Below are positions 269-10,217 of a stretch of DNA of 38,739 bases, piece by piece. Under the pieces are notes generated by a model. That model searched no databases. It was not told the origin of the DNA and saw nothing but the letters and a program-made list of their open reading frames with translations. The translations under genes and the position numbers were made by a program. This DNA comes from Verrucomicrobiia bacterium (lineage in GTDB: Bacteria; Verrucomicrobiota; Verrucomicrobiia; Limisphaerales; UBA8199). Positions within the stretch are counted from its first letter, which is position 1; every line of letters begins with the position of its first letter. The stretch is taken from positions 1-38,739 of the forward strand of contig DASYZB010000022.1 in assembly GCA_035946615.1 (NCBI GenBank). Direction: 5' to 3'.

Positions 269-1135
269 TCAGAACGGCTCTCCTGTCACCACGTTCGACG
301 ATGTCCTCTTCTGCAGCCACAGGATGTCCTTGTTCCCGGGCTGGTTCCGGCTGCCCGCCCGCTTGATCTTCGCACCAACCGCCGTCCGCGGATCGGTCCA
401 CTTGTGAATCTCGGAATGGGCATCAGCAAAGGCGATGCCGCAGGCGAAATTATGATAGCTGCCCGGCACGTCCACCCACGCCGTCGGCATCGCCATCGAG
501 ACCGCGAACTGCGCGTCGTTGATGCTGTACTCGTCTTCGTCCAGCAACACCCAAAGGCCAGCCGGCCCGGGGGCCGTCATGTCGGCAAACTTCCCGTACG
601 TCCGCCACGGGTCATTCGCCTTGTTATGATGCTTGCCGTCCAGCCACGGAGCGTCCACGGCGGACAGCGGCGGCAGCGGCTTGGTCCCCACCGCCTGGCT
701 CATCGAGAAGGTTCGCACCCGGGGATAGCTCACACCGGCGATGATTACCGTGCTATGATCGGCCGGACAGTGGTAAAGCCCCGGGTTGTTTCCCGTGTAC
801 AGCGCCAGCTTCGCATAACGGGGGTCCGTAAGAAAAAGGGTGTTGGTTGCCTGCTCGGGAATTTTCATCGTGCCCGCGACCCAGCTCGAATTGGTGCCGT
901 GCTCCGGGTTGGGCGGCAACCAGTCGTTGTAATCCGCCGCGTACAGGTGAACGGCCCGTATCATTTGGTGGCCATTGTTCATGCAATAGACGCCCTGCGC
1001 TCTGCCCTTGGCGCGATTCAACACCGGCAGGAGCAGCGCCGCCAGGATGCCAATAATCGCAATGACCACCAGCAACTCGATCAGCGTGAAACCGCACCCC
1101 GGTCCTGCGCTTTGAACTCTGCATTTTGCCCTCAC
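269..1135 (-). CDS. Type II secretion/type IV pilin-like pseudopilin (prepilin N-terminal methylation domain)
   Basis: This 288-residue protein starts at GTG 1135. The N-terminus has a short basic leader, then G|FTLIELLVVIAIIGILAAL, the prepilin peptidase cleavage and methylation signature followed by the hydrophobic assembly helix. The body is the large globular head common in Verrucomicrobia and Planctomycetes (NRAKGRAQGVYCMNN after the helix). The C-terminal FADAHSEIHKW resembles the H-X9-DG motif of these families. It is expected to be processed by a prepilin peptidase and to sit at the inner membrane or in a pseudopilus; the actual role is unknown, because these genomes carry many such paralogues. 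It lies between two PIG-V-like mannosyltransferase genes on the same strand, so the pilin could be a glycosylation substrate, but that is a guess. Confidence 0.9.
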   Translation of the reverse strand: MRAKCRVQSAGPGCGFTLIELLVVIAIIGILAALLLPVLNRAKGRAQGVYCMNNGHQMIRAVHLYAADYNDWLPPNPEHGTNSSWVAGTMKIPEQATNTLFLTDPRYAKLALYTGNNPGLYHCPADHSTVIIAGVSYPRVRTFSMSQAVGTKPLPPLSAVDAPWLDGKHHNKANDPWRTYGKFADMTAPGPAGLWVLLDEDEYSINDAQFAVSMAMPTAWVDVPGSYHNFACGIAFADAHSEIHKWTDPRTAVGAKIKRAGSRNQPGNKDILWLQKRTSSNVVTGEPF

Positions 1136-1136
1136 C

Positions 1137-1319
1137 TCACCCCGCCCAGTTGAAGTTCACAAACTGCTTCACCGCCTCGTCGATACGCCACATCAGAGGC
1201 AGGAGCACCGCAGCCTCGACGAACGGCGCCCCATCTACGGCTGAGTTCATCATCCCATCTATCGAGCTAACATTGGCCAGCGCGTTCACGGCAGAATTCT
1301 TGGGAAAATGTTCGTCCAT
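1137..1319 (-). pseudogene. Deletion-collapsed copy of the 3' end of the adjacent PIG-V-like gene
   Basis: The 60-codon frame reads SSIDGMMNSAVDG, then AAVLLPLMWRI, then EAVKQFVNFNWAG and a stop. The neighbouring PIG-V-like protein has GSVDGMTDSALDR, LALLLPWIYRR and, about 65 residues later, WAVKELVNFGWAG at its own C-terminus. DNA similarity is visible too: around 1148-1175 versus 1335-1363, and GGCAGGAGCA at 1198-1207 matches 1571-1580. So this is a diverged duplicate that lost the intervening membrane helices, leaving an in-frame remnant whose ATG is 3 bp past the stop of the parent gene. The first 17 residues have no match in the parent. It could still be translated, but no function is suggested. 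Confidence 0.65.
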
Positions 1320-1322
1320 ACC

Positions 1323-2534
1323 TCAGCCAGCCCAGCCGAAATTGACCAACTCCTTTACCGCCCACACTTGCAACGCGGCTAACCAGGCCACGTAGTACCA
1401 GAAAATCCACCGCTGCTTTGTCTTTGCAAGGAGTTGAGCAAGCACAATAAAAACGGGAAAACAAACCATTATGTACCGCCTATAAGACATAAACCAGCTC
1501 GTGCCGGCAGGAATGAGGCCCGCTGCTAATGAATACAGGAACCATGCGCGGTTTCGGCGATAAATCCAAGGCAGGAGCAACGCTAGAAAAATGAAAAAGA
1601 GGCGATCGAGAGCCGAATCAGTCATGCCGTCCACACTGCCTATGTGGAGAAAAGTCCGAACGAAACCACCCACATTTAAGATATTCAAGACAGAGGGCGA
1701 GTAAGGATATGCCTTTTGAGCCTCAAAACCATCCAGAGCATTTCCAGTCCATGCGTACATAAGGGCAAAGTAGGAAGCGTACCCAAGCAACGGTGCCAAA
1801 ACAAGCAGCCAGTACCCCAATCCCCTTTTGCGATCATGAAGATGCCAAGCAAGGGGGACGACTGCAAAAACGCCTATCGCTTTTGTCAATGGCATCAAAA
1901 AGCTAGTGATACAAACCCAAAAATGCCGTTCGCGAGCGAGTCCCCAAAAGAACACCATTACCATGATGAAGTAAAGCGACTCGGTATATGGAAACGAAAA
2001 AAATACAGCTCCAGGAAAGGCAAGCAAAAGCACAAGCGAGTCTCCGGCTACCCTATTCCCAAAATCTCGTTCGACCAACTTGTAAAACATCCAAAAGGAC
2101 AATACTGACATTGCATTGCCGAGAATCATGGCAGCAATCAGCGGGTTTATGAAAATCCATGAGGCCGCCCGAATCGCCGCGGGCCAGAGGGGGTAGAACG
2201 CACAGGACGGAGACCCCGGCTCGTATCCTTTGGTGGCCAAAACCAGGTAATGCGCGCTGTCCCAAGCGGCAAGTCGGCTTCCAAAAGTCCGATCTCCCGT
2301 TGGAGGCCACCGTGCAAAAGCAAAAGAAAACTGTTGTATATCGAATTCCGAACACAGTCCGAGCAACACCGCTGTGGCTAGCAGGATTTTGCTGGCAACA
2401 ATGCTTTGCCATACGGGCAGGTTCCTCGCGCCCTCCCTCACACCGCATATCTCTCGACTCCTACCGAATCTTCCTGACAAAATTTTGCACAGAGTTTTTC
2501 GTTCACGCAAATGAGTGGTTATTGTCGAATGCAT
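1323..2534 (-). CDS. PIG-V-like integral membrane mannosyltransferase
   Basis: 403 residues with about 8-10 hydrophobic segments. The loop after the first helix holds LAAWDSAHYLVLATKGY followed by CAFYPLWP, the conserved signature of the PIG-V (GPI mannosyltransferase 2) family, where the Asp is the presumed catalytic residue. Bacterial members transfer a sugar from a polyprenyl-phosphate donor to an extracytoplasmic acceptor, often a protein or glycolipid. The ATG at 2534 has a poor Shine-Dalgarno. On the coding strand a TATTATAT-like -10 about 30 bp upstream suggests its own promoter. It follows the 395-residue protein gene by 75 bp. Base composition is visibly lower in GC than the housekeeping part of the window. 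Its C-terminal end has been duplicated downstream (1137-1319). The family is fairly certain, the acceptor is unknown. Confidence 0.82.
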   Translation of the reverse strand: MHSTITTHLRERKTLCKILSGRFGRSREICGVREGARNLPVWQSIVASKILLATAVLLGLCSEFDIQQFSFAFARWPPTGDRTFGSRLAAWDSAHYLVLATKGYEPGSPSCAFYPLWPAAIRAASWIFINPLIAAMILGNAMSVLSFWMFYKLVERDFGNRVAGDSLVLLLAFPGAVFFSFPYTESLYFIMVMVFFWGLARERHFWVCITSFLMPLTKAIGVFAVVPLAWHLHDRKRGLGYWLLVLAPLLGYASYFALMYAWTGNALDGFEAQKAYPYSPSVLNILNVGGFVRTFLHIGSVDGMTDSALDRLFFIFLALLLPWIYRRNRAWFLYSLAAGLIPAGTSWFMSYRRYIMVCFPVFIVLAQLLAKTKQRWIFWYYVAWLAALQVWAVKELVNFGWAG

Positions 2535-2609
2535 GATCTCAGCCTGTGCAGGACGACATATAATAGTTCCTCGCGCGTGGAGTAAGGCTTCGGCGCAACA
2601 GTTTTGTCA

Positions 2610-3797
2610 TTACCTGGGAATGTGTCGGAACGAGGTCGCTCGGTTCCACAAATAAGACAGCGCTGGAAGACACAGAAGGCCCAAGACGACGCAAGCAGCG
2701 ATAATTCTGCCCGATCGACTTTGATTGAGGACTGTGCGATGAGAATGACTCAAGCGCTGATACATCAATATGGCATCTCTGTTCGTGGACATACGCAGAA
2801 GCTCACTTGCAGTTGGGGAACGATAGCCCATAATGTACGCGAATGCATTCGAATAGCGGTACTCGTTTACGATGTAATTCAGCGGAACGTCGATTTTCCC
2901 GAGCGAGGCCGGAGACCTGTAAGTGCTCCCGTAGTTGGAGAAACGCCATAACTCTTTGTACAGGTCGGCTCCGGAAGCGCTCTGGACCTGCATTTCCGCG
3001 TTCTCGGGGACCCATCCCAGGCCATCGCGGTAGGCGGGTTCTGCGTCCCAAGTGGCGCGAGAGCCGTCGCACTGGACTGCAGAAATCCTGCGGGGAAACA
3101 AGTTACATTGGGGATCTAGAAGGATTTCCCAGTGCCCGCTACATTTCTCCCCGATTGCATCGCCGCTGAGCGTCAACAACCCGTTGGCCGCCGCAGCAAT
3201 CGCCACGTTTGTCAGTGAAAGTAGAAGATTTTCGAAGGCGGCTGGAACGATTGGATGGGGCAAGCCTAAGGATTTTGGTGGTTTGGAGCGCATCTCAACC
3301 TCGCCAGGCACGAACCTGGCACGGTCCCCGCCATATGAGTATTGCCTCACATACAAAGTTCTGGTGCTGACTTCGAAATTGTTGGACACTAGCATTTCGC
3401 CGGGCCGCGCACCGCTGACGGAGATCAACGTGTTCTCGATGGACACGCCTTCACCGAACACTCTGATCGCGCCTTCGCGGACTTCCACTCTTTCGGTAGG
3501 GAAATTCCCGGAGCGGATCATCTGCAACTGATACGCCAGGTTTGTACGGTGCGAGGGATTGGCCAAATCTTCGCCCAACTTGGAAATCAGCGAATTGCTG
3601 AGAAAGTAAGTCGTGGTCAGATCAAAGGCGACTTTCCATGCTCTCTGGTTAGTGCGTTGAATCTCTATCGCACCGACGATGCCGTCCATACCCAACGGAG
3701 CAGGAACTATTCTACTTGGCAGGTGTGCGCCGATGAGCATAATCAACCAGGGTTCCAGCCACGTGTGCCTCAGGCACCTCAGGTTTGCCTTCATCAT
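2610..3797 (-). CDS. Unknown exported protein with C-terminal membrane anchor (395 aa)
   Basis: I do not recognise a named family. The N-terminus has a hydrophobic stretch (WLEPWLIMLIGAHLPS) that could be a signal or anchor. A large presumably extracytoplasmic region of about 300 residues follows, with alternating beta-like segments. A single helix near residues 362-382 (IIAACVVLGLLCLPALSYLW) precedes a short basic tail. The layout is the same as in the 391-residue protein at 4701-5876: N-terminal hydrophobic segment, ectodomain, tyrosine- and tryptophan-rich beta segments, C-terminal helix, basic tail. Some segments vaguely recall LolA-like folds, but I cannot show homology. It is the last gene of the five-gene MauE-containing locus and starts with ATGATG at 3797, 116 bp after the Cys-rich peptide gene. 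Confidence 0.75.
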   Translation of the reverse strand: MMKANLRCLRHTWLEPWLIMLIGAHLPSRIVPAPLGMDGIVGAIEIQRTNQRAWKVAFDLTTTYFLSNSLISKLGEDLANPSHRTNLAYQLQMIRSGNFPTERVEVREGAIRVFGEGVSIENTLISVSGARPGEMLVSNNFEVSTRTLYVRQYSYGGDRARFVPGEVEMRSKPPKSLGLPHPIVPAAFENLLLSLTNVAIAAAANGLLTLSGDAIGEKCSGHWEILLDPQCNLFPRRISAVQCDGSRATWDAEPAYRDGLGWVPENAEMQVQSASGADLYKELWRFSNYGSTYRSPASLGKIDVPLNYIVNEYRYSNAFAYIMGYRSPTASELLRMSTNRDAILMYQRLSHSHRTVLNQSRSGRIIAACVVLGLLCLPALSYLWNRATSFRHIPR

Positions 3798-3913
3798 CGT
3801 CTGCTAATTAGTTCTCCGGATGGCCGCCCTCCACACTCTGGGGCTCCCTCGTCAGAAACGGGCAGCCAAGAGTGGGATGAGACCTCCTCTGCGCCCGTTC
3901 CGACCTGGCGGGG

Positions 3914-4237
3914 TTAGTAGCAAGGGGGCCCGTCAACGTGGGCAGTTTGGTAATCTTCAAGATTTGCGGTATTCCAGGCGCACGAGGTGCCTACGCAGAG
4001 CATGTCTGCAAATGTGGGCACCGATGCCGAGACGCAATTTTCCTGCGGAGTTGCTGGTCCCCAACAGCCCGCATCCGTGATCGTTCTTGAGGAGGTGCAA
4101 TTAGGGCATGCGGGGGTGCTCCAGGGTCCGATTACGCAATTTGGGTAAGACCCACATCCGTCGGCATAACCAACATCGATCAGAAAGCCCGTTGAAATTG
4201 CCGCGACCAATACAGTTAGGAGAACGTTCTGTTTCAT
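3914..4237 (-). CDS. Small Cys-rich exported protein (107 aa)
   Basis: A basic start (MKQ) and the hydrophobic stretch NVLLTVLVAAISTGFLI, ending near GYADG, form a signal peptide. The mature part of about 80 residues carries nine cysteines, with CxxC at ACPNC, and is rich in Pro, Thr, Ser and Gly. No catalytic domain is apparent. So many cysteines in an exported protein imply disulfides, metal binding or a redox role. A MauE/DoxX-like redox membrane protein is encoded four genes upstream in the same run, which fits a thiol substrate or carrier, as inferred for peptide-MauE pairs elsewhere. A perfect TATAAT lies 12 bp before the ATG, and there is no Shine-Dalgarno, so it may have its own promoter with a very short leader. 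No sequence similarity to the neighbouring Cys-rich protein apart from composition. Confidence 0.72.
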   Translation of the reverse strand: MKQNVLLTVLVAAISTGFLIDVGYADGCGSYPNCVIGPWSTPACPNCTSSRTITDAGCWGPATPQENCVSASVPTFADMLCVGTSCAWNTANLEDYQTAHVDGPPCY

Positions 4238-4249
4238 AATTTACCATTG

Positions 4250-4255
4250 ATTATA
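4250..4255 (-). promoter_or_regulatory. Perfect TATAAT -10 element before the 107-aa Cys-rich protein
   Basis: On the minus strand TATAAT lies 12 bases before the start codon at 4237. No convincing -35 is seen at 16-18 bp. If used, transcription would start only a few bases before the ATG, giving a nearly leaderless mRNA, which agrees with the absence of a Shine-Dalgarno sequence. It could also be chance in an AT-rich gap. Confidence 0.3.
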
Positions 4256-4296
4256 GATTAGTGGTTCCTCAGATTCACATTTCTCTGGTACCTCGG

Positions 4297-4695
4297 TCAC
4301 ATACAGGGGTTTGTATAAGTCCCCGCGCTTGTCGTTGTCCAGCCTGTGCACTCGCACAAGCTTACAGCGTAGTTAGAAGGAGGCACTGGCTTTACAACAA
4401 CCCAGCCACAAGAGCCGGCTTGGTTTGCAAATGAACACGTGGTTCCGCTAGGAGGCGGACAAGAGGGTTTGCTGCCGTCATCACAGTACATGCAGCCGGT
4501 GTAGATTGTCTGAAAGCAGCCGACAGCCGGAGGTGGAGGAGGCAGTATGCAACTGGTTCCAGATATGATACAGGGATTTCCAGATGTCGTGTTTGGCTTC
4601 GTATAGCAATCATACCCTGCAAAAACAGGCAGGCTGAGCAAGGCGCACACTATTAACGCCATTCTTAACAATGGCGAGCATGTTAATGACCTCAT
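4297..4695 (-). CDS. Small Cys-rich exported protein with proline run (132 aa)
   Basis: The signal peptide is clear: MRSLTCSPLLR, then MALIVCALLSLPVFAG with a probable cleavage after VFA. The mature part of about 105 residues has twelve cysteines spread in spaced patterns (CMYC, CEC) and two proline runs (LPPPPPA and CPPPSG). No enzyme motif is seen. The start codon is 5 bp beyond the stop of the 391-residue protein gene, and the Shine-Dalgarno-like AAAGGA overlaps that gene's end, so translation is probably coupled. Together with the 107-residue protein it makes a pair of Cys-rich secreted products in a locus with a MauE-like redox membrane protein. Its function is unknown; disulfide-rich structural peptide, metal binder or redox carrier are all possible. 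Confidence 0.75.
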   Translation of the reverse strand: MRSLTCSPLLRMALIVCALLSLPVFAGYDCYTKPNTTSGNPCIISGTSCILPPPPPAVGCFQTIYTGCMYCDDGSKPSCPPPSGTTCSFANQAGSCGWVVVKPVPPSNYAVSLCECTGWTTTSAGTYTNPCM

Positions 4696-4700
4696 TTAGT

Positions 4701-5876
4701 TCATCCTTTCGTTAGTGGTTTTGTTCTCATTTTGTTTAATGCGAAACAGGCCAAAGGAAACAGTAATACACAGGCGATCACTAATAGCCCGGCAGCCCGC
4801 GCAGTGGAAGAAGCACTACCGGCTCGCTTTCGTTTCAGGAAATATTTCACGCTTTCGGTTGAACTGGCCACTTTGGCGCGAAAGAGATCCGCCAACCTCT
4901 TGTCGCTTTGGGAGGGCCAGGACCCGTCGGTGCTTACGTAACCTATGAAATCAACCCCGACATCACGCTTGGAAAATCGAAAGTCGGCAATTGAAATTGG
5001 ACGATCGGATTTAGGCACCACCTCCTCCTCCGAGGCGCGAGTTACAGTCCTGGTTTTCCCTTCGAAGAGGACGACAAGCGCCGGGCCAAGATAAACAGCG
5101 CGAGGAGTATATCTTGGGTAGTATCGTCTGACCTCAAACTCGGATGGCAGCACGAGCCCGTTCCAATTTGTTGTGCGCTTCACCTTGTATTCGCCGTAAG
5201 CAAAGCCTGGAGGATATTGAAAAATCGCAGTTTCAATTGCTTTGTTAGGGACAGCGCTAAGCAGGTTATTGTTTGTGACGGCCCTCTTCTGGCAGCCCGG
5301 ATCAACGATGTAATTCACTTCCAATGGCAGGAAAGGAGGCTCGATTGACCTTTTTACTTCGCTCCCGCAGGTCCACATGTCGGCCTCATTTCTTGGCAAT
5401 CCCCAACAGCCCGGGAGAGTATCGTTTGTTCTTTGATCGAGGTAAGGGGTAGAAGCGAACGCCAGCCACGGGATAGCGGTTTGCCAGGATACATCCAGTG
5501 GATACAAACCTGGCGTAATCCAGCTTGGCCGGGGGCGTTGAGACCACGCCTCAGCCTTTTCCATGTCGTAAAGAATGGTGTATATATTCGTCCCATCGCA
5601 GCCGCTCACGGTGAAATTGGAATTTGCAAAATAACCTCGAATCTGCCACAAATTGTGCCACACAGACACCGAAAATCTCGAAGGAATTGTCTGCTGAGAC
5701 GCGCCGGTGGGTCCGAAAATCGTTGCCCGGATATCACCCTCCAGGTGGAATTGAACGGCGCAACAACAACAGGAAACGCAGCAGCCGATTGCTACTCCCA
5801 CCCAGCTCAATTTGTTTGCACTGGCGATCGCCACGACCTCGCTCAAGTGCGGCTTCTCTGGTGTATCAAATGCCAT
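4701..5876 (-). CDS. Unknown membrane-anchored ectodomain protein (391 aa)
   Basis: No named family is recognised. A hydrophobic helix near residues 25-42 contains the unusual cluster CCVSCCCC, a possible acylated or metal-facing patch. The following ectodomain has beta-type motifs (FSVSVWHNLWQIRG, then VSGCDGTNIYTI) of a kind seen in verrucomicrobial secreted proteins with LolA-like or lipoprotein-like folds; this resemblance is an impression, not an alignment. Scattered cysteines (GCWG, TCGSE, GCQKR) follow. A C-terminal helix (GLLVIACVLLFPLACFAL) leads to a basic tail. Its start overlaps the end of the MauE-like gene by 34 bp, so the two are co-transcribed and coupled. The layout matches the 395-residue protein at 2610-3797, suggesting distant paralogues. 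Confidence 0.75.
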   Translation of the reverse strand: MAFDTPEKPHLSEVVAIASANKLSWVGVAIGCCVSCCCCAVQFHLEGDIRATIFGPTGASQQTIPSRFSVSVWHNLWQIRGYFANSNFTVSGCDGTNIYTILYDMEKAEAWSQRPRPSWITPGLYPLDVSWQTAIPWLAFASTPYLDQRTNDTLPGCWGLPRNEADMWTCGSEVKRSIEPPFLPLEVNYIVDPGCQKRAVTNNNLLSAVPNKAIETAIFQYPPGFAYGEYKVKRTTNWNGLVLPSEFEVRRYYPRYTPRAVYLGPALVVLFEGKTRTVTRASEEEVVPKSDRPISIADFRFSKRDVGVDFIGYVSTDGSWPSQSDKRLADLFRAKVASSTESVKYFLKRKRAGSASSTARAAGLLVIACVLLFPLACFALNKMRTKPLTKG

Positions 5877-6325
5877 TTAGTATCAAGAATTAAAAATCCA
5901 CAGCTAAGCGATAAAAGATATGCAATAATTCCCTTCGCGATCCAATCCGTCACCTGTGGCCTCAGACCCAACCAATCCAAAGGGCCGCCAAGGCACGGAC
6001 AGGGTGCGGCATATCCGACTAGCCAAAGCCCAACCCTGTACGCCAGGAAGAGCGAAGCAAGCCAGACCAGTGAGCGGAGTTTAAACGCTACAGGCAGCCT
6101 AACGAGCAAAAGAGAGCCGATCAGCATCTCCAGTAAGGCTGCACAGGCTATGGTTATTCTGTTGCTTGCGAGGGGGACAAGGGGATCGGTTAACGCCATG
6201 TAAGGAACAGGGCGCAGAATGCCAAACAGCTTTAGACTAGCCGTGCAAAACAGAATAGCAACGGCACTATTGATGAAATACCCTTCCAAGCTTTCCGGTA
6301 GCGTCAATTTCGTGCTCGGATTCAT
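5843..6325 (-). CDS. MauE/DoxX-like redox-associated membrane protein
   Basis: 160 residues with four hydrophobic helices (about 20-37, 55-75, 85-104 and 125-150) and a CPCLGG motif at 109-114 between helices 3 and 4, with further cysteines at 27 and 61. This matches the four-helix MauE/DoxX-like family, in which paired cysteines near the membrane face pass electrons to or from exported disulfide-bonded proteins; MauE itself is needed to mature the many-disulfide small subunit of methylamine dehydrogenase. It is the first gene of a minus-strand run and overlaps the next gene by 34 bp. No mau genes are present. The two Cys-rich secreted proteins downstream are the obvious candidate clients. 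Family assignment is good, partner assignment is inferred. Confidence 0.75.
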   Translation of the reverse strand: MNPSTKLTLPESLEGYFINSAVAILFCTASLKLFGILRPVPYMALTDPLVPLASNRITIACAALLEMLIGSLLLVRLPVAFKLRSLVWLASLFLAYRVGLWLVGYAAPCPCLGGPLDWLGLRPQVTDWIAKGIIAYLLSLSCGFLILDTKWHLIHQRSRT

Positions 6326-6541
6326 ACAGCTATTATTGGGACCCGAATGGCGCGGATATCGGATACTCGGCCTTGCGCATTGCGTTGCTCCGTTTCCATC
6401 ACGCGTTCATTAACGAGCAATGTTGCCTAAAACGCAAAGCAAGAATCGGGGCAAATTAGGGTACAGGCACGGTGTTCCCATTGGGTGTGCGTCATAAACC
6501 CACAAACGATCGTCCGGTGCAGGAGCGCCTGCAAGGTTCGG

Positions 6542-7966
6542 TCAAAAGAGCATGCGCGAATACACCTCGCCCAGCCCGAGCAGGGCCGCTAACGCAATGA
6601 CAGCGAGGGCGCCCCGGCCGGCCCATCCGGCGCGCTGCCAGAAGTGGCCGCCGCCGAGCCCGAACAGGCAGGCAAACGGCACGAACGCCTGCGCGAAGAA
6701 GCGCACGTTCTGGTTGCAAGCGAATGGGAACTGGAGAGCGTAGGCGACTGTGATTGCCGTCTGGCACCCTGCCAGGTATAGGCAAACGAACCAAGCCGGC
6801 TTGAGTTCAGGCCGTGGTCGGACCAGGATGCCGGCGGCGAGCACGAGCAGCATTCCCAGGCAGCTCCAGCGGAGAAGCAATGACCACTGGAAATGATACT
6901 CCTGCATCCCGTACTCATCGTAAAGCAGGCTCGTGACCAGCGCCGTCGGGTAGGAATTCCACATCGGCGCGTCGTAATAAAAGCGGCCCCCGATGAAAGC
7001 AGGCAGGTCGAACGAGAAGATGCGCTGCAGGGAGGGGGTGTGGATGCGCAGGTAATCCGGCAAGGCGGCGTTCACATAGAGCGGGTTGCCGGTCTGCATT
7101 GTATTCCGAATCCACCAGGAAAGCTGCCAGAGCCCCGCAGGCAGGCCGGTCAGGTAGGCTTTTTGCAAAGCCAGCAACCAACCGCTACGACGCCATTCGG
7201 ACCAGCAGACCAGTAACAATGCGCCGCCGGCAATCGCCAGCGACGACCCCTTTGTGGCGAGCGCGGCGGGCAGCAGCGCCGCCAGCCACCACAACCAGCT
7301 CCTTTCGCCCGAGCGGACGAATTCCGCAGCCGCGAGCATGACACCGGCGCCGAGCAACGGCAGGAGCACGTCATTGTTAATCCGGGCGGCGAAGAACAAG
7401 TTTCCCGGCAGTAGCGCCAGGGCGGCCAGGGCAGCGGCGGCCTCCACCCCGCTGAGATGCAGGCGGCGGAAAGCAGGCAGCCCGAGAGCAATCGTAGCCA
7501 GATACAGGGTCGCCGAAAGGAACTGAACGGGACGGAACGGGTCGTCAAAGGAGTAATGTGTGAATGGGATGCGCCAGAGCGCGGCAGCGGCATAGTAGAG
7601 CGGCGGTTGCCAGGTTTCCCAGCCTTGCTGCACGCCGGGCAAGGCCAAGCGCGCGGAGAGATGATCAATGTACTCGCGATGCCCGCCTACGTCATGTTGC
7701 CGTACCGAGGGAGTGGTGACGTCCACGTACTGCAGCGCCAGCAGGCCCGCCAGCGCCACAGGCCAAGCCACCCAGGCGCCGCAACCGCACCGGCGCGCCA
7801 GCGCGAATGCCCCGGCGCCCCAGAATACCAGCACGAGCGCCTTCAACCAGGTAACGCTATGGGCCCCTTTGATGTCGAACCAGAGGAGCAGCAAGAAGGC
7901 GGTCCATAGGACAAGATTAGCGTCCCATCTATCAGCGGTTTTGCTTACAGGGCGTGGTTTTAACAT
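6542..7966 (-). CDS. Multi-pass membrane glycosyltransferase-like protein (GT39/DUF2142 type)
   Basis: 474 residues with roughly ten transmembrane helices. After the first helices there is a loop with HREYIDHLSARLALP and then WETWQPPLYYAAAALW, the PPLYY pattern typical of the first extracytoplasmic loop and helix start in dolichyl- or undecaprenyl-phosphate sugar transferases of the ArnT/PMT (GT39) and DUF2142 families. A second loop has ARINNDVLLPLLGAG, also typical of the group. It probably transfers a sugar from a lipid-phosphate carrier on the periplasmic side, but donor and acceptor cannot be read from sequence. It stands 216 bp upstream of the MauE-like gene on the same strand. GC is high, unlike the following locus, so it likely belongs to the backbone. 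Confidence 0.75.
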   Translation of the reverse strand: MLKPRPVSKTADRWDANLVLWTAFLLLLWFDIKGAHSVTWLKALVLVFWGAGAFALARRCGCGAWVAWPVALAGLLALQYVDVTTPSVRQHDVGGHREYIDHLSARLALPGVQQGWETWQPPLYYAAAALWRIPFTHYSFDDPFRPVQFLSATLYLATIALGLPAFRRLHLSGVEAAAALAALALLPGNLFFAARINNDVLLPLLGAGVMLAAAEFVRSGERSWLWWLAALLPAALATKGSSLAIAGGALLLVCWSEWRRSGWLLALQKAYLTGLPAGLWQLSWWIRNTMQTGNPLYVNAALPDYLRIHTPSLQRIFSFDLPAFIGGRFYYDAPMWNSYPTALVTSLLYDEYGMQEYHFQWSLLLRWSCLGMLLVLAAGILVRPRPELKPAWFVCLYLAGCQTAITVAYALQFPFACNQNVRFFAQAFVPFACLFGLGGGHFWQRAGWAGRGALAVIALAALLGLGEVYSRMLF

Positions 7967-8108
7967 TGTGATTCGCGGCCCGCGCTGGAGTGTGGATCGT
8001 CAGGGCGTCGAGTGTGTCTGCAGCACTTGGGCCCCCACGCTTCTTGCTCAAACGCTCCACGCTCACACGACACCGAGCCGAGAACCGAGTTTGCTGTTGC
8101 ACGATCCC

Positions 8109-8855
8109 TTACCCTAGCGCGCTGTTCAGCCGCCCGTAATAAAGCCGCCTTACGGCGCCTTGGCGGTTGTGGACGCTGAGTTTGTGGTAGAGCCGCTTGA
8201 GGTGCGTATGGAGCGTGGGATCGCGCAGCCCGATGCGCTCCGCAATTTCTTTTTCCTTCAGTGATTGGAGCAGGTACGGAGCGATGGCGCATTCCAGCGG
8301 GCTTAGGTTAAAGGAGAGCAGGCGGCCTGCCTGGGATTGGACATGCCGCACGAGCGCCTCCTGGGCCAGCTTGCAAAGAAAGCCCCTGCCGTGAGCCGCG
8401 CTCACAACGGCGCGCTCAAAATGCTGCCAAGGCGCGGTTTCGACGATGTAGCCATCCGCGCCCGCCGCGATGAACCGCGCAATCTCCGCAGGAACGCGAC
8501 TTTCGCCCAGAATGATAACCGGGAGCTCGGACGCCGCGAGTTTGACCTCACCGAAACCGCCGCGAGTGGGGCGGACCTGGGAACTTGCAAGCAGTAGCAG
8601 GCTGGCGCGCAGACCGGAGAGGGCCGCCGCGGCTTCGGACAGGCCCGGGTAATCGCGCAAAAGCCACCCGTGAGCGGCTGCTACCCGCTCAACGCGCGTG
8701 CGCGTGCCATCGCACGCCCCGGCAAGAACAACCCGAATACGCGGTCCTTTCGCGCCAGGGGAAGGCAGGACCGAGCCGGCGCCAAGCGATGCAGGGAACC
8801 TCAATGCCGCGGAGTCCGCAGACTTGCCTTTCGGATACTTTTTCCCAAGTTCCAT
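8109..8855 (-). CDS. LuxR/NarL-type regulator with degenerate receiver domain
   Basis: 248 residues. Residues ~40-160 have a receiver-like fold (IRVVLAGACDG, then LLLLASSQV, PVIILGES, AAGADGYIVET), but the phosphoacceptor Asp expected in the LLLLASS strand and the conserved Lys near the end are both missing. The C-terminal ~65 residues are a LuxR helix-turn-helix (LSPLECAIAPYLLQSLKEKE, then IAERIGLRDPTLHTHLKRLY). It should bind DNA without classical phosphorylation, being controlled by ligand, partner or amount. The ATG at 8855 has AGGA about 6 bp upstream. It is divergent from the PocR-AraC regulator with a 324-bp gap. The first ~35 residues are basic and of no clear fold. Confidence 0.82.
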   Translation of the reverse strand: MELGKKYPKGKSADSAALRFPASLGAGSVLPSPGAKGPRIRVVLAGACDGTRTRVERVAAAHGWLLRDYPGLSEAAAALSGLRASLLLLASSQVRPTRGGFGEVKLAASELPVIILGESRVPAEIARFIAAGADGYIVETAPWQHFERAVVSAAHGRGFLCKLAQEALVRHVQSQAGRLLSFNLSPLECAIAPYLLQSLKEKEIAERIGLRDPTLHTHLKRLYHKLSVHNRQGAVRRLYYGRLNSALG

Positions 8856-9179
8856 TCATTTCCTCGCTTTCTTTCCCTTCCGCCGGCCGCCGGAAAAAGA
8901 AACACTCCCGTGCGAGCGGCTCGCCCGTCGCCTGATACGCCCCATTTCTACGAAGATTTCTCAGTTCTATCAAGTCAAGAAATGGAACTCGTACTCGTCA
9001 CAGCCGATGTCGGGCATGGTTATCCACCGCAACACTCTCCCACTGGAGTTCTGCGCCTTTCCACGGCGCACTAAAACAGGCTCTAAGGGAATCCCTTAGC
9101 CCATCTGAGCCTCTCCCCCAAGTCACAATCAGGCACTACCCTAATTGTCTTGACTGCCGGCTTATCGTAATTTGCTCAT
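8856..9179. other. Divergent intergenic region between LuxR-type and PocR-AraC regulators
   Basis: 324 bp without a supported gene. It contains the 17-bp palindrome at 9083-9099, a CTCGTACTCGTC stretch near 8986 of a type also seen around 37611-37630, and a TTGACT (9150-9155) with no good -10 at the usual spacing. Promoters for both regulators must lie here. Confidence 0.5.
9083..9099. promoter_or_regulatory. 17-bp perfect palindrome, candidate operator
   Basis: CTAAGGGAATCCCTTAG has two 7-bp arms around AAT. It sits 81 bp before the start of the PocR-AraC gene and 228 bp before the LuxR-type gene. A site for a dimeric regulator, perhaps one of these two, is plausible. The arms are too short and there is no T-run, so a terminator is unlikely. 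Confidence 0.35.
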
Positions 9180-10217
9180 GTGCAAACAACAAATGTTAGG
9201 CAGGACTCCGAAACCGCATTGGCATTTAGCCCGCCCAACGGGGCTCCCAGTATCCCCGCCCCGCGTTCGGGGCAGGCTGGCGCCGCGCCGGCCGGGCTTC
9301 GGGGGCCCGGATTCAAGGCGCGCCCCAACGGCTCTGGCGACCGCGCCTTGATCGAGGCGCTGGTCAATTCGAAAATCTTTCAGGATTATGAGCGGGCGTT
9401 CACCGAAGCGACGGGCCTTCCAGTGGCATTGCGCCCGGCCGAGACGTGGCAACTGCCGCATCACGGCAAGCGCAACGAGGGTCCGTTTTGCGCGTTGATT
9501 TCCGAGAAAAGCCGCGCCTGCGCATCTTGTTTGTCAGTGCAGGAAAAGCTGTCGGAACTGGCCAGCCACGAGCCGCATACGGTTTCCTGCCCGAATGGGT
9601 TGTCGGATACCGCCGTGCCGGTTCGATTAGGAGACCGCTTAATTGGGTTCCTGCAAACGGGCCAGGTCTTTCGCAAGAAGCCGACGGAGAGCCAATTTGA
9701 CAGGACTGCCCGGCAGATTTCGGATTGGGGCGTGAACATTGAGCCGCAGGCTTTGAGGCAGGCCTATTTTGCCACGCGCGTGGTTCCAACGCGCCAACAT
9801 GAAGCAGTGACGCGGTTGCTGGCGATCTTCGCCCAGCACCTCTCAATGTTGAGCAACCAGGTCATTGTGCAGCAGGAAAATTCCGAACCGCCGGTGATTA
9901 CGCGGGCCAAGGAGTATATCCAGGAACACCAGACCGAGAACCTGCGCTTGAGCCATGTTGCCAAGGCCTGCAACACGAGCACATTTTATTTTTGCAAGAT
10001 GTTCAAAAAGGTAACCGGGATCAACTTCACCGATTACCTCTCGAGGGTGCGCATCGAGAAATCCAAAAACCTGTTGCTCAATCCCAACCTGCGGGTGAGC
10101 GAAATCGCCTTCGAGGTGGGATTCCAATCCCTGACGCATTTCAACCGGGTATTCAAAAAAATCCTGGGCCTCTCACCGACCGAGTACCGAACGCAATTGC
10201 TGGGAAAACGCGCATAA
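9180..10217 (+). CDS. PocR ligand-binding domain / AraC-family transcriptional regulator
   Basis: 345 residues. After a low-complexity Pro/Ala/Gly start of about 50 residues, residues ~55-225 form a PocR-type sensory domain: FTEATGLPVALRP, then CALISEKSRACASC and SCPNGLSDTAVPVRLGDRLI, with the spaced cysteines usual in this family, which senses small diols or hydrocarbon derivatives. Residues ~242-340 carry two AraC helix-turn-helix motifs (LRLSHVAKACNTSTFYFCKMF and VSEIAFEVGFQSLTHFNRVF). The start is a GTG at 9180; no other in-frame Met lies before the domain. An ATG two bases upstream is in another frame. No propanediol genes are nearby, so the regulon is unknown. Confidence 0.88.
   Translation: MQTTNVRQDSETALAFSPPNGAPSIPAPRSGQAGAAPAGLRGPGFKARPNGSGDRALIEALVNSKIFQDYERAFTEATGLPVALRPAETWQLPHHGKRNEGPFCALISEKSRACASCLSVQEKLSELASHEPHTVSCPNGLSDTAVPVRLGDRLIGFLQTGQVFRKKPTESQFDRTARQISDWGVNIEPQALRQAYFATRVVPTRQHEAVTRLLAIFAQHLSMLSNQVIVQQENSEPPVITRAKEYIQEHQTENLRLSHVAKACNTSTFYFCKMFKKVTGINFTDYLSRVRIEKSKNLLLNPNLRVSEIAFEVGFQSLTHFNRVFKKILGLSPTEYRTQLLGKRA

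Follow-up and report, generated by a model that had tools for sequence, protein, structure and literature searches.

A recurrent gene cassette for MauE-like, LolA-like and cysteine-rich secreted proteins in an order of Verrucomicrobiia, with a possible role in export and maturation

A stretch of 38,739 nucleotides from a Verrucomicrobiia bacterium of the order Limisphaerales (assembly GCA_035946615.1, contig DASYZB010000022.1; hereafter the window) carries, at positions 2610-6325, genes for a MauE-like membrane protein, for two large proteins with an ectodomain (BIG1 and BIG2) and for two secreted cysteine-rich peptides (CYS1 and CYS2). Do these genes belong together, and if so, what could they do? 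The original prediction described an undescribed thiol-redox export locus, in which the MauE-like protein oxidizes or reduces the peptides while the large proteins hold, process or present them. Overall this interpretation is partly supported, and the window contains one copy of a recurrent, fast-changing cassette in its order. The genes are arranged as follows.

5843-6325, minus strand: MauE-like protein, a polytopic membrane protein of 160 amino acids (aa), from the list of open reading frames (ORFs), a weak Pfam MauE match and alignment A2.
4701-5876, minus strand: BIG1, 391 aa, with an N-terminal signal or anchor, a predicted LolA/LolB-like ectodomain (approximately residues 38-301) and a C-terminal membrane helix with a basic tail.
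4297-4695, minus strand: CYS1, a secreted Cys-rich protein of 132 aa, the putative cognate of BIG1 by position.
3914-4237, minus strand: CYS2, a secreted Cys-rich protein of 107 aa, the putative cognate of BIG2 by position.
2610-3797, minus strand: BIG2, 395 aa, a second ectodomain protein with a C-terminal membrane helix.

The ORF list bears out five genes on the minus strand, with an overlap of 34 bp between the MauE-like gene and BIG1 and 5 bp between the BIG1 stop and the CYS1 start. The tight packing that had been described holds for MauE-BIG1-CYS1 and loosens further down, where the gaps widen to 59 bp (CYS1-CYS2) and 116 bp (CYS2-BIG2). BIG1, BIG2, CYS1 and CYS2 have no Pfam or NCBIfam match at E ≤ 1; the Pfam scan at the window covered nine proteins spanning 269-8855.

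The association recurs in other genomes and is therefore not a matter of chance. A BIG1 profile built from 20 members finds matches in 89 of 320 genomes of the order, the window's own included. The single BIG1 sequence finds 15 of 286 genomes of the class at E ≤ 0.01, again with its own genome and several marginal cases among them, and a draw of 288 genomes from the phylum yielded three with BIG1: the window's own, one of the same class (E 5.8e-23) and a marginal one (E 9.8e-4). Loci were fetched around the single-sequence matches (16) and around matches to the BIG1 profile or to BIG2 (60), amounting to 974 kb including the window; a few of them overlap or stem from sister genomes. They hold 104 BIG1 ORFs (fragments included) and, by profile, 62 MauE ORFs; the final profile places the single-sequence matches behind L035-L037 outside the BIG1 family.

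Cys-rich ORFs with a signal-like start are concentrated at these genes. There are 68 in the fetched loci, and 56 (54 unique) lie on the same strand at 600 bp or less from a BIG1 or MauE gene. At 600-3000 bp we found five on the same strand and one on the opposite strand, beyond 3 kb five in 368 kb, and one in a locus without a core (48 kb). This corresponds to approximately 48 per 100 kb near the core (117 kb) compared to 1.4 far away. MauE and BIG1 are fused in 14 ORFs, which encode 13 distinct proteins and in two cases contain only part of MauE; one of the 14 is a double fusion, MauE-BIG1-BIG1, at 1404-4040 of L104 (878 aa). One further locus, L124, repeats the order of the window, with a fused MauE-BIG1 (399-2000), a Cys-rich ORF (2014-2484), a CYS2 homologue (2561-2920) and a BIG2 homologue (3001-4203); in L125 a CYS2 homologue is paired with BIG2, and in L126 a Cys-rich ORF lies upstream of a BIG2 homologue. 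The fusions, the enrichment of peptides and the second genome with the same gene order argue for a joint function. The original claim is upheld in that genes of the three kinds, MauE-like, ectodomain and Cys-rich, recur as a unit.

A sample drawn in reverse, by MauE alone, gives a comparable picture. Among 97 genomes of the order, 36 were positive with a total of 75 matches, of which 65 were examined and 10 left out. BIG1 and/or a Cys peptide lies within 3 kb in 49 of these 65 loci: 25 have both, 8 BIG1 only, 16 a Cys peptide only, and 16 neither. One counted peptide (in L140) is the C-terminus of a PMT-like protein and thus a false positive, which leaves the total of 49 unchanged. At some MauE loci without BIG1 we identified a third family of large proteins, BIG3 (22 members), 14 of which lie at most 700 bp from a Cys peptide and at most 3 kb from MauE. 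When BIG3 is added and membrane proteins are excluded as peptides, 41 of the 48 MauE ORFs in L140-L179 have a partner (24 both, 9 a large protein only, 8 a peptide only; 7 have neither); three of the 41 are fused to BIG1 and one to BIG3. BIG2 is rare, occurring in 4 of the 320 genomes of the order, its own included, and a profile-profile comparison relates its last ~80 residues to BIG1 (probability 93%, E 3.4e-7, 78 columns).

What kind of protein is BIG1? An AlphaFold2 model from 89 sequences (predicted local distance difference test, pLDDT, 91; predicted template modeling score, pTM, 0.83) confidently predicts a LolA/LolB-like fold for the ectodomain (~38-301). In a Foldseek search of the PDB at E ≤ 0.001, all 26 matches were LolA, LolB or related chains such as DUF1329, the best being 8orn_A (E 8.7e-6). 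VIA comparison, restricted to Foldseek's candidates so that families unlisted there are not excluded, gave Z 10.7 with LolA 1iwl (159 residues, root-mean-square deviation 3.7 Å) and Z 7.2 with RseB. None of the 89 BIG1 members matches the LolA/LolB sequence families in Pfam or NCBIfam. To the LolA-like part BIG1 adds a hydrophobic helix at the N-terminus and a long helix at the C-terminus (326-384).

The C-terminal helix is called as a membrane helix in 78 of 90 full-length members, followed by a tail with a net charge of +2 or more in 89 of 93, and it holds or adjoins a proline in 74 of 93; a V-x-D-x-R segment ahead of it is conserved in the family alignment (89 members). BIG1 is therefore not of the soluble type represented by periplasmic LolA. 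MauE lies within 3 kb of 57 of the 78 BIG1 with a C-terminal helix versus 2 of the 12 without (Fisher p 3e-4), and a peptide within 700 bp of 49 of 78 versus 3 of 12 (p 0.025). This 78/12 split was obtained after truncated ORFs were dropped and the helix threshold was loosened, helices having been seen to be missed; with the stricter setting, and ORFs truncated at contig ends included, the proteins with MauE at 3 kb or less number 52 of 73 where a helix is called and 7 of 20 where it is not. Solitary BIG1 proteins exist, mostly without anchor, and these are perhaps a separate soluble class. Helix, MauE (3 kb) and peptide (700 bp) are all absent for BIG1 in L093, L109, L111, L113, L119, L123 and L130. 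BIG1 has no conserved cysteine, the best column reaching 28 of 89, and was rejected as a redox partner; the conserved thiols therefore sit in MauE and the peptide.

The MauE-like protein of the window matches Pfam PF07291 with E 7.2e-4 and 20.3 bits, below the curated cut-off of 27. At E ≤ 0.1 the same family is matched by 8 of the 13 members of alignment A2, the window included (best 6.6e-8). Hydropathy indicates about four helices. Residues 109-111 are CPC, followed by LG, and C109, C111 and G113 are conserved in A2; among 104 MauE domains, 88 keep CxCxG. By hydropathy and the positive-inside rule the CxC pair is predicted on the outer face, in the loop that joins helices 3 and 4. A PDB sequence search with the MauE profile gave no match. 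No mau gene was recognized among the nine window proteins scanned in Pfam: the protein may work like MauE, but does not belong to a mau operon at this locus. Five MauE genes are present in the window's genome; G504, of the same family, has 12 MauE matches, and nine of the 12 same-family relatives searched have none. MauE is joined to a prepilin-like domain in two ORFs of 453 aa (L022 15236-16597 and L072 6881-8242), the former with two CxxC pairs between both domains.

The peptides provide the other set of thiols. The twelve and nine cysteines originally counted were recovered: CYS1 has 14 in total and 12 after its putative signal peptide, and CYS2 has 9. CYS2 homologues occur at L124:2561-2920 (E 1.4e-12) and L125:1525-1878 (E 7.4e-10), each adjoining a BIG2 homologue. 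The best of six seeds collects a peptide family of 58 members, including CYS1 of the window, that takes in 55 of 66 BIG1-linked peptides versus 3 of 27 others, and in which seven Cys columns are invariant or near-invariant. Membership depends on the seed (2, 1, 21, 53, 58 and 40 members for the six, at a permissive threshold of E 0.05), and a search seeded with the window's CYS1 finds two members, itself included. The peptide start overlaps the BIG1 stop in 23 cases, follows it at 0-30 bp in 19 and at 31-200 bp in 17. Even numbers of cysteines prevail in the mature BIG1-linked peptides (49 of 67; p 2e-4, a value weakened by relatedness), compared to 8 of 14 for BIG3-linked peptides, 7 of 12 at MauE without a large protein and 14 of 25 with no core nearby. 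A peptide profile, A5, has matches in 12 of 196 genomes and is unfit for counting absences, because at E 1e-3 the peptide of the window itself escapes it. Of its 19 matches, 18 adjoin BIG1 genes by coordinates, the remaining one being the weakest (G348:C5), at a locus outside the set; this adjacency is largely circular, since most A5 matches are members of the alignment. The PDB sequence search with the peptide profile gave no match.

The most likely reading, to which we give about an even chance, is that the locus is an export-maturation cassette, in which MauE would set the disulfides of the peptide and the tethered LolA-like protein would be its dedicated carrier or chaperone. Gene association, gene fusion and conserved thiols are observed, as is the fold in the form of a prediction; redox direction, binding, delivery and surface display are extrapolations from these. 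The Cys-rich protein would leave the cytoplasm by the Sec route. The CxC of the MauE-like protein, predicted to face the periplasm, would then form or correct its disulfides, and the LolA-like ectodomain, held at the membrane by the C-terminal helix, would bind the folding peptide and pass it outward. CYS1 would be served by BIG1 and CYS2 by BIG2.

Several observations weigh against an export-maturation cassette. A Cys peptide was detected within 600 bp in only 44 of 73 core-bearing loci, and 31 of 90 full-length BIG1 have no MauE within 3 kb (21 of 78 with helix, 10 of 12 without). Homologues regularly found without a MauE-like gene had been named as grounds for refutation, and such homologues are found in part, above all among the helix-less proteins. 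Seven of the 48 MauE ORFs mentioned above have neither partner, some of them near contig ends. No regular thioredoxin-like partner such as MauD is present, a WCxxC-type motif occurring in 3 of 640 called genes (motif only), and no sequence relation was found between BIG3 and BIG1. Odd numbers of cysteines occur in CYS2 and in 18 of the 67 BIG1-linked peptides. The CYS1 model is of moderate quality (pLDDT 73) and has no match in the PDB by fold. The correlation of BIG1 distances with peptide distances is weak (Mantel r 0.13, p 0.015, n = 56), and among the 47 sets that include MauE the value for BIG1-peptide (0.15) is hardly above that for BIG1-MauE (0.12), so that co-evolution of BIG1 and peptide is not clearly above that of BIG1 and MauE. 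The original interpretation as a whole stands in part: the conserved CxC and the preference for even cysteine counts favor it, and the solitary BIG1 and the loci without peptide speak partly against it.

The remaining features of this part of the window, all on the minus strand, flank the cassette.

269-1135, minus strand: PIL, prepilin-like (Pfam N_methyl E 2e-6, weak DUF1559); a recurrent cassette neighbor.
1137-1319, minus strand: an ORF of 60 aa, apparently the remnant of a second GT 3' end, by BLASTP to the GT C-terminus.
1323-2534, minus strand: GT, a polytopic membrane protein of 403 aa without Pfam match, which we take to be glycosyltransferase-like; a recurrent cassette neighbor.
6542-7966, minus strand: a PMT_2-like membrane protein upstream of MauE (Pfam PMT_2 E 0.0039, below the cut-off).
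8109-8855, minus strand: a LuxR-type protein upstream of the PMT-like gene (Pfam GerE E 2.3e-9), a possible regulator.

The GC fraction of 2610-6325 is 0.526, versus 0.579 for window bases 8001-38739. Transfer as a unit had been read from this difference; however, in 69 of 76 loci the core has a lower GC than the DNA around it, and a property so common among cores was rejected as evidence of recent transfer. A viral or defense origin was likewise rejected, as no PHROGs match was found and none of the window proteins has a PADLOC match. RNA elements in the window are absent at the gathering score, and promoter-like sites (1 versus 3.6 expected) and terminator-like sites (16 versus 11.3 expected, standard deviation 3.9) are near the shuffled expectation.

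Some of these neighbors accompany cores elsewhere. Within 1.5 kb of cores, compared to 3-5 kb away, we found per 100 kb 8.0 versus 1.6 genes of the prepilin-like family, 4.7 versus 0.8 of the GT family, 3.9 versus 0.4 of GTB (not recognized by Pfam), 3.6 versus 0.8 of GtrA and 3.9 versus 1.2 of the Wzy type. GT2 and the PMT-like family of the window show no enrichment; the PMT_2-like gene was rejected as a core part and is possibly a frame gene in the window's genome only. The pilin-like and glycosyltransferase-type neighbors suggest a variable cell-surface product. One ORF in L024 (12944-14557) joins a GtrA domain to a BIG1 domain.

Could cores be exchanged between such neighbors? Eight of nine multi-core loci contain at least one internal DNA repeat, with 67 to 97% identity. 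In L167 a GtrA/prepilin frame is repeated at 94-96% DNA identity (e.g., 1846-3099 and 8428-9681 at 94%), and the cores between the repeats encode MauE and BIG1 proteins that either belong to different families or share at most ~36% identity; a repeat with 85% identity extends into the 5' ends of two ORFs for large proteins as well. A similar picture is seen in L024 (GT/GtrA, 81-84%) and L126 (prepilin 89%, GTB 75-90%), whereas L088 and L144 differ in that MauE itself is the repeated part. Between the window and a second locus of the same genome, L140, the PMT-like gene has 77% DNA identity and the core no DNA similarity. By BLASTP the 1137-1319 ORF resembles GT over two short segments, residues 292-330 and residues 392-403 (E 2e-4 for each, as a single comparison). 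It borders the low-GC block, looks like a decayed second copy of GT and is possibly the scar of a cassette exchange. Because similar flanking genes enclose diverged cores in some arrays, cores may be exchangeable between conserved flanks. It is conceivable, though on balance doubtful, that they make up an order-wide diversity-generating surface system, in which conserved pilin-like and glycosyltransferase-type genes form a frame for cores that are swapped, so that the disulfide-rich proteins displayed by each strain change; each exchangeable core would consist of a redox protein, a membrane-tethered LolA-like carrier and a disulfide-rich secreted protein.

The divergence of cores between flanks that stay similar in some arrays (94-96% in L167, lower elsewhere) would also fit competition or polymorphic effector loci, as would the many copies per genome (the 12 MauE matches of G504) next to none in nine of 12 same-family relatives. 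Here the Cys-rich protein would be a toxin-like effector, neutralized or carried by the LolA-like protein, with MauE making its disulfides. No supported Pfam toxin or immunity domain is present in BIG1 members or peptides, although small toxins can lack a described domain; the window proteins have no PADLOC match, and the would-be immunity protein is fused to MauE. We consider such an effector role unlikely.

Somewhat less likely still is that MauE works in the reducing direction, or that the cysteines bind metal, so that the peptide would be no disulfide substrate. The direction of MauE is unreadable from sequence, and CxxC pairs and the odd counts in 18 of 67 peptides would agree with this. 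The excess of even counts in BIG1-linked peptides (49 of 67) argues for disulfides, and this excess is absent in the small BIG3-linked, MauE-only and coreless sets; so do the extracytoplasmic location of the peptide and the precedent for MauE, which is disulfide formation, itself called speculative (PMC7794033).

The fold shared with RseB (VIA Z 7.2) raises the thought of a sensor, in which the anchored LolA-like protein acts as RseB does, the Cys-rich protein is its periplasmic ligand and MauE reports or resets the redox state. The membrane helix with its basic tail and the V-x-D-x-R segment ahead of it would suit such a role, and AraC-type and response-regulator families occur within 3 kb of the core in five and four loci, respectively. 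Most loci lack these regulators, the tail consists of a short basic stretch without a domain, and no anti-sigma family is among the 11 recurrent neighbor families scanned (one to two representatives each; rarer neighbors unscanned), which makes a sensor improbable. Equally improbable, and largely refuted by the MauE-BIG1 fusions, is that the genes merely share a variable surface-glycan or pilin region without joint function: such regions collect unrelated genes, the surroundings are enriched in pilin-like, GtrA and glycosyltransferase-type genes, and part of the BIG1 loci lack peptides and MauE, but stop-start overlaps and the tie of one peptide family to one large-protein family (55 of 66 versus 3 of 27, for the best of six seeds) also stand against it.

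An export-maturation cassette has partial counterparts among known systems. Like MauE of methylamine utilization (PF07291), the MauE-like protein is a small membrane protein with a conserved CxC; unlike it, it has no mau gene among the nine window proteins and no regular WCxxC-type neighbor, is often fused to a LolA-like ectodomain and, in the window copy, falls below the Pfam cut-off. BIG1 shares the predicted fold of its residues 38-301 with the LolA/LolB carriers; it differs from them in being approximately twice as long, in lacking a LolA/LolB Pfam match, in its C-terminal membrane helix with basic tail and in its pairing with a Cys-rich protein. The likeness to RseB extends to the LolA-like domain and not to an anti-sigma partner among the recurrent neighbor families scanned. 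A further parallel is in Streptomyces, where the accessible part of PMC7794033 describes mauE homologue clusters with small precursors of at least 8 Cys, candidate ribosomally synthesized and post-translationally modified peptides (RiPPs) from decRiPPter, and suggests, as speculation, that MauE matures a disulfide-rich exported protein. CYS1 (12 mature Cys) and CYS2 (9), beside their MauE-like gene, reach this count of at least 8 Cys. No LolA-like partner is named there, whereas the present cassette has one, its peptides carry Sec-type signals and its host lineage is another; no RiPP-modifying enzyme was recognized among the nine window proteins scanned. The word 'undescribed' therefore has to be restricted, since mauE beside Cys-rich precursors is on record for Streptomyces (PMC7794033); on the combination of a redox protein, a LolA-like carrier and a Cys-rich protein, no report beyond PMC7794033 was found among the matches listed in the open-licence literature.

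These results assign a likely function to large protein families unrecognized by Pfam and NCBIfam, and tie MauE, testably, to a substrate outside methylamine metabolism. They suggest LolA-like proteins as membrane-tethered carriers of cysteine-rich proteins, and point to rapid replacement of secreted disulfide-rich proteins in a bacterial order that has been little studied.

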